DNA of 64,000 nt from Rhodospirillaceae bacterium (GCA_002716125.1 PAZH01000003.1:22347-86346); one strand, 5' to 3'; counted from the first letter of the stretch, positions 23,409 to 32,226 are shown. The notes: generated by a model not told the origin, from the sequence alone. Numbers and translations: made by a program.

Positions 23409-24878
23409 TTACAGCAGCATGCCGAGCGGGTCTTCAATAAGCCGCTTGAAAGCCCCCAGATATTCCGCCCCGATCGCCCCGTCTACCGCGCGGTGATCAA
23501 CCGAAAGCGTACATGACATCACCGTCGCGACCGCCAAAGCGCCGTCTTTCACGACCGGGCGCTGCTCGCCGGCGCCCACAGCCAGAATGCAGGCCTGCGG
23601 CGGATTGATGACCGCGCAGAAATCCTTGATTCCATACATTCCAAGGTTCGAAATGCTGAACGTACCGCCCTGGTACTCCTCCGGGCCCAACTTCCCCTCC
23701 CGGGCCCGTTCGGAGAGTTCCTTCATTTCCGATGAAATTGTCTCCAAGCCCTTGTTGTCCGCCTGGCGCACGACCGGGGTAATCAAGCCGCCTTCGATCG
23801 CCACCGCGACCGAAATATCAGTGGATTTGTATAATTTTACACCTTCATCGGTCCAAGACGCGTTCGCCTTTGGAACCCGTCTCAATGCGATCGCAGCCGC
23901 CTTTATCACGAGGTCGTTGACTGAGAGCTTGTACGCGCCGTCCGCCTTGTCATTGAGCGTCTTCCGCAATTCAAGCAAACCATCGATCTCGCAATCAACG
24001 GTAAGATAAAAATGCGGGACTTGTTGCTTTGATTCCGTCAAGCGACGCGCGATCGTTTTGCGCATGGTCGATAAGGATTCGAGCTCGAATTCAGGCTCAA
24101 ATGGCAGACGCTCGGCCGTTGTTGGTGCTGCAGCCGGAGCCGCCGGCGCCGCGGCCGGCGCTGACGGTGCGGCTGCTGGAGCCGGCGCGGCCGTCGCGCC
24201 ACTCTCAATCGCCGCCTCGATATCGGCTTTCACAATTCGACCGTTTGGCCCACTGCCGGAGATACCCGCCAAATCAAGCCCCGCCTGCGAGGCCATTCGC
24301 CGCGCAAGAGGACTGGCGATAATTCGACCACCCGTCGCAGGCGCCGCCGCAGCAGTGGTACCGCCGCCAATAACTGCTTCCACATCAGAGACGACGATAC
24401 GTCCATTCGGCCCGCTACCTGTAATGCCAGCAAGATCCACGCCCGCCTGGGAGGCCATTCGACGTGCTAGCGGGCTCGCCAGTGGCGGTTTTCCAGCTTC
24501 CGGCGCAGGCGCTGCGGTGGCCGGTTCCGGTTCGGGAGATGGTGCCGGTTCGGGAGTTGGTGCCGGCGGCGTTCCGCCATTGCCGGAGGGAGCGGCCGCT
24601 GAAACATCGACACCTTCAAGTGCCGAGTCGTCTTCACCCTCTTCCAACAACAACGCGATCACATTATTGACGGCGACCCCTTCGGTACCCTCGGCAACGA
24701 GAATTTTCCCGAGTTTGCCTTCTTCGACCGCTTCAACCTCCATCGTCGCCTTATCGGTTTCGATTTCGGCAATTATATCACCCGAATTAATCGCATCGCC
24801 TTCCCCGACGAGCCATTTTGCTAAGGTCCCTTCCGTCATGGTCGGCGACAAAGCGGGCATAAGTATCTTTACTGGCAT
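23409..24878 (-). CDS. pdhC: pyruvate dehydrogenase complex dihydrolipoamide acetyltransferase (E2), with two tandem peripheral-subunit-binding domains
   Basis: Lipoyl domain (EIETDKATMEVEAVEEG), two PSBD copies, catalytic domain ending SCTLSVDHRAVDGAIGAEYLGAFKRLIEDPLGMLL. Confidence 0.96.
   Translation of the reverse strand: MPVKILMPALSPTMTEGTLAKWLVGEGDAINSGDIIAEIETDKATMEVEAVEEGKLGKILVAEGTEGVAVNNVIALLLEEGEDDSALEGVDVSAAAPSGNGGTPPAPTPEPAPSPEPEPATAAPAPEAGKPPLASPLARRMASQAGVDLAGITGSGPNGRIVVSDVEAVIGGGTTAAAAPATGGRIIASPLARRMASQAGLDLAGISGSGPNGRIVKADIEAAIESGATAAPAPAAAPSAPAAAPAAPAAAPTTAERLPFEPEFELESLSTMRKTIARRLTESKQQVPHFYLTVDCEIDGLLELRKTLNDKADGAYKLSVNDLVIKAAAIALRRVPKANASWTDEGVKLYKSTDISVAVAIEGGLITPVVRQADNKGLETISSEMKELSERAREGKLGPEEYQGGTFSISNLGMYGIKDFCAVINPPQACILAVGAGEQRPVVKDGALAVATVMSCTLSVDHRAVDGAIGAEYLGAFKRLIEDPLGMLL
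24207..24317 (-). repeat. PSBD copy 2 in pdhC (ASPLARRMASQAGLDLAGISGSGPNGRIVKADIEAAI)
   Basis: 31 of 37 residues identical to copy 1, offset 54 codons. Confidence 0.85.
24369..24479 (-). repeat. PSBD copy 1 in pdhC (ASPLARRMASQAGVDLAGITGSGPNGRIVVSDVEAVI)
   Basis: 31 of 37 residues identical to copy 2. Confidence 0.85.
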
Positions 24879-27326: not shown

Positions 27327-27413
27327 TTGGTCTCCTTGACTGCGCTCCTAAAAGCGCGCTTTGGCTTCCGGTCACCAACAGATGGTGCGCGACGCATCGC
27401 GCTTCAAGTTTTA

Positions 27414-27472
27414 TTAACCATTTGTGAATAAACGGTTAATCGACATTTAACTCGATTTTTGTTAATCGATTA
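27414..27472. promoter_or_regulatory. cluster of TTAA(C) motifs, including TTAATCGACATTTAAC (TTAA-N7-TTAAC, CtrA-type) at 27436..27451
   Basis: TTAACCAT at 27414, GGTTAA at 27434, TTAA-N7-TTAAC at 27436, GTTAA at 27461 and palindrome TAATCGATTA at 27463, all in the pdhA upstream region. Confidence 0.45.
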
Positions 27473-27544
27473 GCTTTATCGGATTATACGATGTCACCGG
27501 GACGGTCGCTAGAACAGAATATAGAAACGCCCGGATGACCGGCG

Positions 27545-28456
27545 TTATTTCAAATCCCGCCCAACACGCTCCAATATCGCATTGACCCGGCACGCGAGTT
27601 CTAACGAATTAGCCGGATCTTTTTTGGTATCGAAACTCTTTACGAACGCCCGATACACAGATGCCAAGGGTCGTATTCCTTCAATGGCAATCTCGGTATT
27701 GTTCTTCAACAACTTAGGTGTCGGATGGTCGTCGAGTTCAAGCGTCCCACCTGAACCGACACATCGAAATCGTCGTTGCTTCACCGTCATAAGGTTTCCG
27801 AACGTCAGTTTCGCAGATATGCCCGACCCAAATGACATTTCCACCCGAATCGTATGCACCACGCCGCCCCCATTGAGACGCGTTGCTTCAATGCTTTCAG
27901 GCGCTTCGCCGGCGATGTCCAAGACCATCGAGAGATCATGGGGACCGTAGTCCCACATCCCAGACATATACCGCCGAAAAGGCCCATCGTTGCCACCGAT
28001 CGATTCGATATGCTCCAGCGGGCCAATTTCGTCAATTCTTCGACTGAGTTCGCCATAACCCGCGCTGTAAAGGTGAATGAGATTCACGAAAAATGGACAA
28101 TTCCTGCTCACAGCGCGTTGACGGATCGAATTCGCCTCCCGGCTGTTGAACGACAACGGTTTTTCCGCAAGAACCGGTAGTCCGGCGTCGATACACCGAT
28201 AGCTCAAGTCCGCGATGCGTTCCGGTTCAACGACGAGCGCCACACCGTCTAGCTCGGCGCCACTCTCCAACAGGGCATCCAAATTCGGCCAGACCTTTGG
28301 CGAGCCGATATCAGCCAACAGCGTGCGGGGTTCTTCGCTGAGAGATCGGCTAACAATACCTGCGAACGTCATTCCTTCTTCCGCCAGGATCGTTGCCATA
28401 TGTCTCTGAGCCCAACTGCCGGACCCGACGACTGCGATCGAAGGAACGCGCGCCAT
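27545..28456 (-). CDS. Gfo/Idh/MocA-family oxidoreductase
   Basis: SIAVVGSGSWAQRHMATILAEEGMTFAGIVSR; EKPLSFNSREANSIRQRA. Confidence 0.85.
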   Translation of the reverse strand: MARVPSIAVVGSGSWAQRHMATILAEEGMTFAGIVSRSLSEEPRTLLADIGSPKVWPNLDALLESGAELDGVALVVEPERIADLSYRCIDAGLPVLAEKPLSFNSREANSIRQRAVSRNCPFFVNLIHLYSAGYGELSRRIDEIGPLEHIESIGGNDGPFRRYMSGMWDYGPHDLSMVLDIAGEAPESIEATRLNGGGVVHTIRVEMSFGSGISAKLTFGNLMTVKQRRFRCVGSGGTLELDDHPTPKLLKNNTEIAIEGIRPLASVYRAFVKSFDTKKDPANSLELACRVNAILERVGRDLK

Positions 28457-28465
28457 TGCCGAAAA

Positions 28466-29533
28466 TCAACCTAATTCCGCCTGATAGCGCGGGATCGCCC
28501 AGGTAAGAAAACGGTTTACCCCCTCGTCCAACCCGATTTTCGGCTCAAATCCCAGCTGCAGTTCCGCCTTGCGGATATCGGGACAACGGCGCATCGGCTC
28601 GTCCGCGGGATACGAATCCGGGTATTCCGTTGTTTGAGTCCGCACCGGAACGGGGCTCACGCGCTCAAAAGCATCCGCCAGCTCGTTCATCGACACCTCC
28701 GGATTCGGGTTGCCGATGTTATACGTCTCTCCCGGCACGCCTTTCAGCAGGACACGCATGAACCCAATCATCGCGTCGGCGACAAAGCAAAACGTGCGTG
28801 TTTGGCGACCGTCTCCATAAATCATCAAGGGTTTGTCCGCGGCGATCTGCGCCGCAAAATTGGGCATTACACGGTAGTCCGAGCGCTGCATTCCCGGTCC
28901 ATAGACATTAAAGGGCCGAATAATGTTCGTGTGAACGCCGAAATAGTCGTGAAAAATATAGCAATACGTCTCGCCGACACGTTTGCCCTCGTCATAACAA
29001 GCGCGCGGTCCCAGGGTCGACACATTGCCGCGATAACTCTCTTTGGTCGGAACGTGCGCTGGGTCGGGGTCGCCGTAAATCTCGCTTGAGGAAAAATAGA
29101 TAAATCGGGCACTTGCCGCCTGTGCCGCTCTGAGGAGACGTTCCGTTCCTACCGTCGCAACTTCTAGGGTCTCAAGCGGATAAGCGCGATAATAATACGG
29201 GCTCGCGATACCTGCCGCGTGAATTACCCAATCGAATGGCCCCTCCGGCAATTCATCACGGCATATATCCGCATGAAGTAACTCGCCCCATTCCCCAATA
29301 TCTCCCACCAATGCCTTATCGGCGACCCGGAAATTATCTAAAATCGAAAGTTTGCAGGGACTGGCCAAAACTTCCTCATTCAATCGCTTGAAAATGGCGA
29401 GAAAATAGCGGCCAAGAAAGCCCGCTCCCCCAGCGATCAGTATTCGTTTGCCGGCCAGACTTTCCACTTCGCGCGGCAAACCGCCGATTATATCGTCGAG
29501 ATCGCTGTCCAGAATCAGATCGCTAGAAATCAT
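28466..29533 (-). CDS. NAD-dependent epimerase/dehydratase, UDP-glucuronate decarboxylase (UXS)-like
   Basis: ILIAGGAGFLGRYFLAIF; SSSEIYGDP; LGPRACYDEGKRVGETYCYIFHDYFGVHTNIIRPFNVYGPGM. Confidence 0.85.
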   Translation of the reverse strand: MISSDLILDSDLDDIIGGLPREVESLAGKRILIAGGAGFLGRYFLAIFKRLNEEVLASPCKLSILDNFRVADKALVGDIGEWGELLHADICRDELPEGPFDWVIHAAGIASPYYYRAYPLETLEVATVGTERLLRAAQAASARFIYFSSSEIYGDPDPAHVPTKESYRGNVSTLGPRACYDEGKRVGETYCYIFHDYFGVHTNIIRPFNVYGPGMQRSDYRVMPNFAAQIAADKPLMIYGDGRQTRTFCFVADAMIGFMRVLLKGVPGETYNIGNPNPEVSMNELADAFERVSPVPVRTQTTEYPDSYPADEPMRRCPDIRKAELQLGFEPKIGLDEGVNRFLTWAIPRYQAELG

Positions 29534-30779
29534 CCGCTGATACCATTCGTAAGGTTGGCAAGGGCACAATAAATCGACGGTTCCCCGTCAGAAATGACTT
29601 ATTGTTTTCGATAATTGGATCGGCAAAGTTCCATGCAAGGACAACCACGTCGTCGACGGGTTGTTGCTCCAGCTGAGACGAAGCAAATATCGGAACATTC
29701 AGGCCAGGGCTCAGCAATCCTTGTTTCCAGGGGCTATCATCCACAATGTATTCGATGTCGGTATTTGTAAGGCCAAACTGATGCATCAAGGTCGTCGCTT
29801 TGGCCGGTGCACCGTATCCGGCAATCCGTCGGCCGGCACGTTTCGCGGCGCTAATCTCCGCCGTCAACCGATCGCCGGCTTCGGCAATCTGCGCCGTTAA
29901 CTTTGAATAAGCAGCCGAATCGAAAAGCCCCGCCTTTTCCTCCAGTTGAATTAAATTTGTCACACCTTCCGACACCGACCGCCCCGCCTCGAACGGGGCC
30001 GCAAAGACTCGGATCGAACCGCCATGGCTCGCGATGCGTTCGACATGAAACAAGACAAAACCCTGCGATTTAAGGAAATCACGCAAGGGGCGTACGGCAT
30101 GATAGTCCAGATGTTCGTGATAAATCGTGTCGAACAGCGTGTGTTCCAGCACATCGAGAAGATAAGAAACCTCAAACACGAAAATACCGTCGGTCTCAAG
30201 CACGTCACGTACTCCGGAGATGACGCCGCCGAGATTATCGATATGGGCACAAACATTGTTTGCCGTGACAATTTTGGCCTTGCCGCGTTCTGCCGTTATC
30301 GTCTCGGCCGTCGCATGTGAGAAGAAATCGATGATCGTCGGGATACCAGAAGCATTCGCTTCTGTTGCGATTTTTTGCGCTGGATCGACGCCTTGGATCT
30401 CCGCACCTAAGCTTTGAGAAGCCCGTAAGAGCGTTCCGTCGTTTGAACCGATATCAACGACAAGGTCGCCGGGCTTCGCTCCCGAGATCGACCATAGCGC
30501 CTTTGCGTAAGTTTCGAAATGCGCGACAAAACTTGGAGAAGCCCCTGAAACGTAGACATAATTTGAAAATAACAAGGATGGATCTACGACATGCCCCAAT
30601 TGTACATGACCGCAATCCGCGCACAAATTCAGTTCGAGAGGATACGCGTCCTGCGCTTTCTCCTTGTCCGCGGGGGATATGAATGCATTCGCAGGCGGGG
30701 TTGGTGCCAAGACACAAACGCGTTCAAGCGACCGGCTGCCGCATAACCGGCAATCTTCTCGTCGCCTGCAATTGTTCAT
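29523..30779 (-). CDS. SAM-dependent methyltransferase of the sugar C-methyltransferase type (zinc-binding N-terminus)
   Basis: CRLCGS...LNLCADCGHVQLGHVVDPSLLFSNYVYVSGAS; DIGSNDGTLL; DTIYHEHLDYHAVRPL. Confidence 0.85.
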   Translation of the reverse strand: MNNCRRREDCRLCGSRSLERVCVLAPTPPANAFISPADKEKAQDAYPLELNLCADCGHVQLGHVVDPSLLFSNYVYVSGASPSFVAHFETYAKALWSISGAKPGDLVVDIGSNDGTLLRASQSLGAEIQGVDPAQKIATEANASGIPTIIDFFSHATAETITAERGKAKIVTANNVCAHIDNLGGVISGVRDVLETDGIFVFEVSYLLDVLEHTLFDTIYHEHLDYHAVRPLRDFLKSQGFVLFHVERIASHGGSIRVFAAPFEAGRSVSEGVTNLIQLEEKAGLFDSAAYSKLTAQIAEAGDRLTAEISAAKRAGRRIAGYGAPAKATTLMHQFGLTNTDIEYIVDDSPWKQGLLSPGLNVPIFASSQLEQQPVDDVVVLAWNFADPIIENNKSFLTGNRRFIVPLPTLRMVSADDF

Positions 30780-30789
30780 GGCCGGATGA

Positions 30790-31230
30790 TCAATCGATCT
30801 TCGACGGATCGACGAGCGTGATGCGCCGAACGTCGGCTTCGTAGGTTTCTTGATCGCGCGGATTGCGTCCGAATGTGTAGAAAACCGTATCTTCGGTGAA
30901 GACCATGGCATGATCGACCATCGGCGGCGTGAAAAACAGCTCGCCTTTCTTAACAGTCACCATTTCCGGATCGTCCTCCGACCCGTGTGGACGATGGTAA
31001 TAATCGATCTCGCCTTCGGCGACATAACAATAGTGCCAATCCGTCAGGTGATAATGATTGGCTCGCACTGTCCCTTTCTTTGAAGAAATAATAACAACAC
31101 TTTTCGTCGGCAGATCATACAGAGGCTGGATAGAACCTCTCTCATCGTTATGACTGGCTTCCAAAGGCACAATAACGTCCGTCGGCCACATGCTCGGATC
31201 GTCAAGATGAATGCTCTTCCAATCGCTCAT
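30790..31230 (-). CDS. cupin-fold protein (sugar epimerase/isomerase-like)
   Basis: DERGSIQPLYD; GTVRANHYHLTDWHYCYVAEGEIDYYHR; KKGELFFTPPMVDHAMVF. Confidence 0.7.
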   Translation of the reverse strand: MSDWKSIHLDDPSMWPTDVIVPLEASHNDERGSIQPLYDLPTKSVVIISSKKGTVRANHYHLTDWHYCYVAEGEIDYYHRPHGSEDDPEMVTVKKGELFFTPPMVDHAMVFTEDTVFYTFGRNPRDQETYEADVRRITLVDPSKID

Positions 31231-31405
31231 TGCCTGTCTTACTTCTTAGTTTGAAATTAGCATTTGCGAAATTTCATTCAAATCCACAAAAATTTTATCC
31301 TTTTTTTGATAAGCCAATACAATACTTAGTGATAAATTGGAATTACTAAGATACTTGGCCTTCTACTTATTGGCACATGGATCTGTTTAGCGTAGACATA
31401 AAAGA

Positions 31406-32122
31406 ATGACCAACGAAATAGAACTTTCTATAATTGTGCCGTGCTACAACGAAACCGCGACAATCAGGAAAATCATCGAGCTGGCTTCAGGTGCCGATAA
31501 ACTTGGCTTAAATTTCGAGATTATTGTTATCGATGACGGTTCGTCGGATGGCAGTAGAAAAAAAATTTATGAACTTGAGCACGAGTTCGGACATGTGATA
31601 GCGAAGTTCCACAAAAAAAACTTTGGGAAAGGCGCCGCGCTTAAAACAGGTATTCAAATCGCCAGAGGTGACATCATCCTTATTCAAGACGCAGATCTAG
31701 AGTATGATACGAGTGATTATCCGAAGCTCTTAAAGCCGTTTATCGATGACAAAGCCGACATCGTTTTTGGATCGCGGTTTAAGAGTGGAGAAGTAGGTCG
31801 TGTCCTGTATTTCTGGCACAGCGTAGCGAATCACGTATTAACGCTCTTTTCCAATATGATGACAGATTTGAACCTTACTGACATGGAAACTGGATATAAG
31901 GTCTTCCGACGCGAAATCGTGAATAAGTTCGAAATCAAGGAAAAACGCTTCGGCGTTGAACCGGAATTGGCTGCTAAAGTTGGTAAACTAAAACCGCTTC
32001 CACGAATTTATGAAGTTGGCATTAGCTATTACGGACGCACTTACGAAGATGGTAAGAAAATTGGTTGGAAGGATGGGTTACGCGCACTTTATTGCATCAT
32101 AAAATATAAAATTTTTGATTAA
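31406..32122 (+). CDS. family 2 glycosyltransferase (polyprenyl-phosphate/dolichyl-phosphate glycosyltransferase-like)
   Basis: LSIIVPCYNETATIRKIIELA; IVIDDGSSDGSRKKI; FGKGAALKTGIQIARGDIILIQDADLEYD. Confidence 0.9.
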   Translation: MTNEIELSIIVPCYNETATIRKIIELASGADKLGLNFEIIVIDDGSSDGSRKKIYELEHEFGHVIAKFHKKNFGKGAALKTGIQIARGDIILIQDADLEYDTSDYPKLLKPFIDDKADIVFGSRFKSGEVGRVLYFWHSVANHVLTLFSNMMTDLNLTDMETGYKVFRREIVNKFEIKEKRFGVEPELAAKVGKLKPLPRIYEVGISYYGRTYEDGKKIGWKDGLRALYCIIKYKIFD

Positions 32123-32226
32123 TTTGTGCGCTGAAGCAATAATTAACGTGAATTTACTGCGGCGTTTTAATTTTTTTAATTTCTTGTCGCAACAACTAAT
32201 GTCATTCCCTCGTTTGGACATCTGAA

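Follow-up and report, generated by a model that had tools for sequence, protein, structure and literature searches.

A five-gene cassette lies between ftsB and pdhA

The window analyzed here is a stretch of 64,000 nucleotides from Rhodospirillaceae bacterium (GCA_002716125.1 PAZH01000003.1:22347-86346). It holds a cassette of five genes with the following features:

27327-27544, no strand: left junction; from about 27520, homology with congener G007, whose site is empty (blastn)
27545-28456, minus strand: Gfo/Idh/MocA oxidoreductase, 303 aa; predicted keto-sugar reductase
28466-29536, minus strand: UXS-like extended SDR, 356 aa; predicted UDP-glucuronate decarboxylase releasing UDP-4-keto-pentose
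29523-30779, minus strand: C-methyltransferase (CMT) of Methyltransf_13/23/14 architecture, MtmC/TcaB9-like, 418 aa
30790-31230, minus strand: cupin, 146 aa; predicted 4-keto-NDP-sugar 3,4-ketoisomerase or C3-epimerase
31231-31405, no strand: intergenic region from which cupin and GT2 diverge, 175 bp, AT-rich (31% GC)
31406-32122, plus strand: GT2, 238 aa; predicted polyprenyl-phosphate sugar synthase (ArnC/DPMS-like)
32123-32226, no strand: right junction, from GT2 to ftsB; ftsB adjoins pdhA in 20 relatives

The minus-strand genes form an operon (27545-31230) in which the cupin and CMT genes are 10 bp apart, the CMT and SDR genes overlap by 14 bp, and the SDR and Gfo/Idh genes are separated by 9 bp. 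The start of the CMT was placed at the ATG 10 bp past the cupin stop, and the longest ORF was not used. Pfam matches over the cut-off were obtained for the Gfo/Idh protein (PF01408 and PF22725), the CMT (PF08421, PF08484 and PF13489), the SDR (PF01370) and the GT2 (PF00535), while the cupin was marginally over the cut-off for Cupin_2. Promoters in both directions likely lie in the AT-rich divergent gap. The GC content of GT2 is 41%, compared with 50-55% in the other four genes, which suggests that GT2 joined the cassette from a different source.

We located pdhA in 23 relatives besides the genome of the window, and compared the upstream DNA for 20 of them. In all 20, ftsB stands immediately before pdhA, with eno usually just beyond. 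In G007, whose pdhA is 95% identical, the site is empty, with about 790 bp of gene-free DNA between ftsB and pdhA; when G007 positions 680-1000 were aligned with the window by blastn, homology picked up again around 27520, just past the Gfo stop. The cassette SDR is present in 2 of 11 genomes of the family and in 12 of 385 genomes of the class (E<=1e-90); of 25 near relatives, 2 carry a GT2 relative, the genome of the window being one of them. Since few relatives carry the SDR or GT2 and the G007 site is empty, the cassette represents a sporadic insertion at this site and not a standard locus. The first-pass annotation, which had described a tight minus-strand gene set with a divergent GT2 inserted between pdhA and ftsB/eno, was therefore correct as to gene content, arrangement and insertion, and the gene set is not universal at this place. 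The window offers a concrete case in which a putative surface-sugar module landed in a conserved housekeeping intergenic site.

Also in the window, the peripheral-subunit-binding domain of the pdhC (E2) ORF (23409-24878, minus strand) occurs twice in tandem, in nearly identical copies (ASPLARRMASQAG[VL]DLAGI[TS]GSGPNGRIV...), which is unusual for E2.

The cassette recurs in about ten phyla

A scan of named genomes returned 80 loci with SDRs of 52-68% identity. They occur in Alphaproteobacteria (many Rhodospirillales, Magnetospirillum and SAR116), Prochlorococcus, Elusimicrobia, Omnitrophota and Verrucomicrobia, and also in Magnetococcales, Bdellovibrio-type bacteria, SAR86, Ignavibacteria, Planctomycetes and Tectomicrobia. 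The carriers cover about ten phyla; many of these genomes are MAGs, in which individual taxonomic placements may be binning errors.

Gene order was counted in the 65 loci with adequate flanks, the counts being lower limits since some genes escape ORF calling or the E-value threshold. In at least 60 loci the CMT immediately precedes the SDR, the cupin precedes the CMT in at least 52, Gfo directly follows the SDR in at least 45, and the full cupin-CMT-SDR-Gfo order is kept in at least 41. The pairwise distances of the SDR, CMT, cupin and Gfo proteins are correlated (r=0.51-0.76, permutation p=0.001), which indicates that the genes travel together. The order kept in distant phyla and the correlated protein distances rule out a chance cluster.

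The typical neighbors are a WecA-type GT4, a GT1, a PglF-type dehydratase (SDR), a GT87/PMT-like GT-C enzyme, an asparagine synthase and a heparinase-like protein, and the usual setting elsewhere is a surface-polysaccharide cluster. No carrier element was found: the cassette SDR was absent from the plasmid collection (E<=1e-60), and phages held only distant UXS-like genes (34-36% identity). A search of the open-access literature yielded no description of this gene set or of 3-C-methyl-pentoses. Each protein family is known by itself; in the literature searched, their combination, the SDR clade and the wide spread are undescribed.

In two loci (L013 and L084), no CMT or cupin was detected with the cassette-clade SDR; in front of it lie a winged-helix gene and a second small gene that is also conserved (clusters c15 and c25). 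A gene of cluster 19, located behind the SDR at some loci, was considered as an alternative oxidoreductase and rejected, as it encodes GDP-mannose pyrophosphorylase/PMI.

The SDR belongs to a sister group of UXS

The best structure match of the SDR was human UXS1 (200 bits, 41% identity), about 97 bits above the next match outside UXS (103 bits). The signature positions of the UXS/ArnA family have been tabulated in human UXS1 numbering (PMC12820599). All ten, including the triad [T/S]-Y-x3-K, are kept in the window SDR except that T118 is replaced by Ser, and A79, Y84, S119, E120, R144, Y147, K151, N176 and R277 are invariant in 93 cassette SDRs. The first-pass assignment of a UXS-like enzyme, which would have fallen had the UXS residues been missing, is thus borne out.

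In the phylogenetic tree, the 93 cassette SDRs grouped apart from 23 UXS-like homologues and from human UXS1, in a separate clade (support 0.87, stem 0.33). The cassette SDRs are therefore a sister group of UXS and not canonical UXS, and, being outside the canonical clade, they may use a substrate other than UDP-GlcA. The T118 position is occupied by Ser in 91 of 92 cassette SDRs, but by Thr in 22 of 23 canonical UXS-like homologues. In EvdS6, the T126A substitution at the equivalent position (TSE/TDE) abolished UDP-xylose, while UDP-4-keto-xylose was still released (PMC10338323). By analogy, the clade-wide change from Thr to Ser would fit keto-sugar release, although it is weak evidence on its own, Ser being a conservative replacement and T126A not a Thr-to-Ser change. 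If the reading is right, the change would mark UXS relatives tuned to keto-sugar release and provide a simple, testable rule for annotating many "NAD-dependent epimerases". A UXS-like protein with Ser at this position (L127) was considered as an intermediate and rejected, as both the GPRACYDEGKR motif and a CMT neighbor are absent.

A separate canonical UXS-like gene was found in five of seven sampled cassette carriers, including the genome of the window (L151:7017-7967). Since most sampled carriers have this second gene, the cassette is unlikely to serve for making plain UDP-xylose. The genome of the window also has a galU-ugd-pgm operon, so that UDP-GlcA can be supplied.

The CMT, cupin and Gfo/Idh protein resemble keto-sugar enzymes

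The CMT matches MtmC at 313 bits (38% identity over 408 residues) and has the features of NDP-sugar C-methyltransferases (TylCIII/MtmC/TcaB9): a Zn-binding N-terminal domain (PF08421), a SAM domain (PF13489) and a C-terminal domain (PF08484). It shares Y76, H179 and the YHEH motif (Y220-H-E-H223) with MtmC, and Cys 10, 13, 53 and 56 are invariant in 87 sequences. The likeness to 3-C-methyltransferases noted at first reading is thus upheld by overall identity, the Cys4 site and the YHEH motif.

In five loci (L060, L073, L081, L083 and L014), the CMT has Y-x-D-R in place of YHEH. Four of these have no detectable cupin, which suggests that the chemistry of the cupin and the CMT is coupled; the flank of the fifth, L014, is too short to tell. 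The variant cassette perhaps makes a different product.

The cupin model (pLDDT 93.6) had as its top Foldseek PDB matches the 3,4-ketoisomerases QdtA/FdtD, the epimerases EvaD/RmlC/ChmJ, and CapF. The fold agreed with QdtA, FdtD, EvaD, RmlC and ChmJ at E of about 1e-7 to 1e-6 and TM of 0.6-0.66 (query). The motifs D-x-R-G-x-I and R-x-x-H-x-H are invariant over 45 homologues of 40-84% identity. In the sequence families, only the marginal Cupin_2 match and a sub-threshold Polysacc_synt_C match were found in Pfam and none in NCBIfam, and a sequence profile search gave weak matches to oxalate decarboxylases; by sequence, the protein could be another metal cupin. From the model, it is predicted to act like FdtA/QdtA ketoisomerases or RmlC epimerases without belonging to either family, and the fold match would fit epimerase and ketoisomerase alike. 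The earlier proposal of a 4-keto-sugar isomerase or epimerase therefore stands as to the fold.

The Gfo/Idh protein, with 3c1a as its closest structure, has the Rossmann and C-terminal domains of the Gfo/Idh/MocA family, and E98-K-P and D169-x3-H173 are invariant in 42 homologues. These motifs and the two Pfam matches agree with the original family assignment. Its identity across loci is low (21-35%), and in 20 of the 65 loci with adequate flanks no Gfo was detected behind the SDR, so that the final reduction may vary between organisms or products.

The GT2 probably loads a lipid carrier

The GT2 model (pLDDT 88.8) had ArnC, DPMS and GtrB as its top Foldseek matches, all of them polyprenyl-phosphate sugar synthases. 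It has a GT-A fold with an acidic DxD-type metal site, in which Q94-D-A-D97 is invariant. Profile searches ranked DPMS first and ArnC second, and the score against the ArnC equivalog (PRK10714), 70.5 of 529 bits, was below the cut-off. Judged by model and profile, the GT2 probably loads the sugar onto a polyprenyl phosphate carrier. The first-pass annotation had the GT2 transferring the sugar itself; the family is retained, and direct transfer to the glycan gives way to loading of the lipid carrier, the nearest relatives being ArnC, DPMS and GtrB.

A GT2 is found near the cassette in 27 loci, mostly of a second subtype (35-45% identity to the window GT2), while the subtype of the window (57-62%) adjoins the cassette in L019 (Magnetospirillum UT-4), L050, L052, L064 and L069. 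GT-C enzymes are the usual partners of polyprenyl-phosphate sugar synthases. A GT-C gene adjoins the cassette in nine loci of other genomes; in the genome of the window this partner has no homologue, and the one PMT-type protein found there, on a different contig, is unrelated.

A proposed pathway to a C-methyl-branched pentose

In the pathway that we propose, the SDR would oxidize C4 of UDP-GlcA and decarboxylate the product, releasing UDP-4-keto-pentose (as ArnA or EvdS6 does) instead of UDP-xylose. The cupin would epimerize C3 or shift the keto group between C4 and C3, and the CMT would add a methyl group from SAM to the carbon adjoining the ketone (C3, or C4 after isomerization). Whether the methyl group is on C3 or C4 would depend on the cupin being an epimerase or a ketoisomerase. 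The Gfo/Idh protein would then reduce the ketone to yield UDP-C-methyl-pentose, which the GT2 would transfer to undecaprenyl phosphate. The membrane GT-C enzyme that adjoins the cassette in other genomes could move the sugar from undecaprenyl phosphate to a surface glycan or lipid.

This reading is built on gene content, gene order, conservation, the insertion, catalytic residues and fold matches, from which we infer the substrates, step order, branching carbon, stereochemistry, product and acceptor. Taken as a whole, it has in our judgment an even chance of being right: the cassette would be a horizontally spread module, and not a local curiosity, for a C-methyl-branched pentose made by an Arn-like logic with a new sugar. 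More tentatively, and just short of an even chance, we suggest an undescribed mobile module for UDP-3-C-methyl- or UDP-4-C-methyl-pentose, loaded on polyprenyl phosphate for surface glycans, in at least ten phyla including Prochlorococcus, SAR116 and magnetotactic bacteria. The protein families of the first-pass annotation hold, its branched-pentose idea survives the refuting conditions set for it, and direct transfer by the GT2 is revised. If the reading is right, a branched pentose and a complete, assayable pathway are added to the known bacterial sugar alphabet, with relevance to abundant environmental bacteria about whose glycans little is known.

Several known systems share parts of this logic. 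Like the Arn pathway (ArnA decarboxylase domain, ArnC and ArnT, with Ara4N on lipid A), the cassette has a predicted UDP-4-keto-pentose hub derived from UDP-GlcA, a GT2 whose nearest structure is ArnC, and a GT-C partner next to it in other genomes. Unlike the Arn pathway, its conserved neighborhood lacks the ArnB aminotransferase and the ArnA formyltransferase domain, the SDR is single-domain, the GT2 is much shorter than ArnC, and C-methylation, a cupin and Gfo/Idh reduction are present. In everninomicin and avilamycin biosynthesis, EvdS6/AviE2 are likewise UXS-type SDRs releasing 4-keto-xylose for a branched pentose, eurekanate (PMC10338323), although there the branch is a TPP-dependent two-carbon unit in an antibiotic, whereas the cassette is predicted to add a SAM-dependent methyl group and lies in surface-glycan clusters. 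Bacterial UDP-apiose synthase (Geminicoccus and Xanthomonas; PMC5607165) also makes a branched pentose from UDP-GlcA, but here a single enzyme contracts the ring and adds no methyl group.

The MtmC/TcaB9-type 3-C-methyltransferase pathways (mycarose and tetronitrose) share the CMT architecture, the Cys4 site and the YHEH motif. A cupin epimerase and a Gfo-type reductase are usual partners in such pathways. They start, however, from dTDP-4-keto-6-deoxyhexoses, whereas the fixed partner in the cassette is a UXS-like SDR. That the characterized CMTs of the family (MtmC and TcaB9) act on these hexoses and not on pentoses speaks against a branched pentose, and for a C-methyl-branched hexose of the 6-deoxy type, such as mycarose or virenose, with the UXS likeness of the SDR reflecting ancestry only. 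In NCBIfam, too, the SDR scores best against dTDP-glucose 4,6-dehydratases, though far under the cut-off (91 bits versus 365). We nevertheless regard a hexose product as unlikely: the window SDR reads S150-S151-E152 in place of the Thr-Asp-Glu triad of dTDP-glucose 4,6-dehydratase (RmlB), the UXS/ArnA signature is kept with one conservative change, and the conserved gene set includes no 4,6-dehydratase.

It is quite improbable that the SDR is a normal UXS whose UDP-xylose goes into a polysaccharide, with the CMT, cupin and Gfo acting on a keto-sugar made elsewhere in the cell. The UXS residues, including the catalytic triad, are indeed intact, but the fixed position of the CMT directly upstream of the SDR, the correlated distances and the canonical UXS already present in most sampled carriers argue otherwise, and Gfo would be superfluous if the SDR re-reduced its own intermediate.

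Within the C-methyl-pentose pathway, an order that begins with 3,4-ketoisomerization by the cupin, after which the CMT would methylate C4 (4-C-methyl pentose) and Gfo/Idh would reduce C3, would agree with QdtA as the top fold match, with the H-x-H motif and with the pointlessness of a C3 epimerase after C3 methylation, but we hold it to be very doubtful, as RmlC-type and ChmJ C3-epimerases match the cupin about equally and the CMT resembles 3-C-methyltransferases.

Other observations in the genome

An ORF in the genome of the window (L152:9519-11983, minus strand, G000:C52) resembles, by eye, hydroxyethylphosphonate dioxygenase/methylphosphonate synthase, with a match to Cupin_2 only in Pfam and none in NCBIfam. 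The best model for the adjoining Fe-alcohol dehydrogenase was the phosphonate-type Phn_Fe-ADH (297 of 424 bits), and phosphonate synthesis in this genome is possible from these two genes. In the same genome (L152:2621-4816, minus strand, G000:C52), pyruvate kinase and ATP sulfurylase are fused in one ORF with PK, PUA_2 and ATP-sulfurylase domains.
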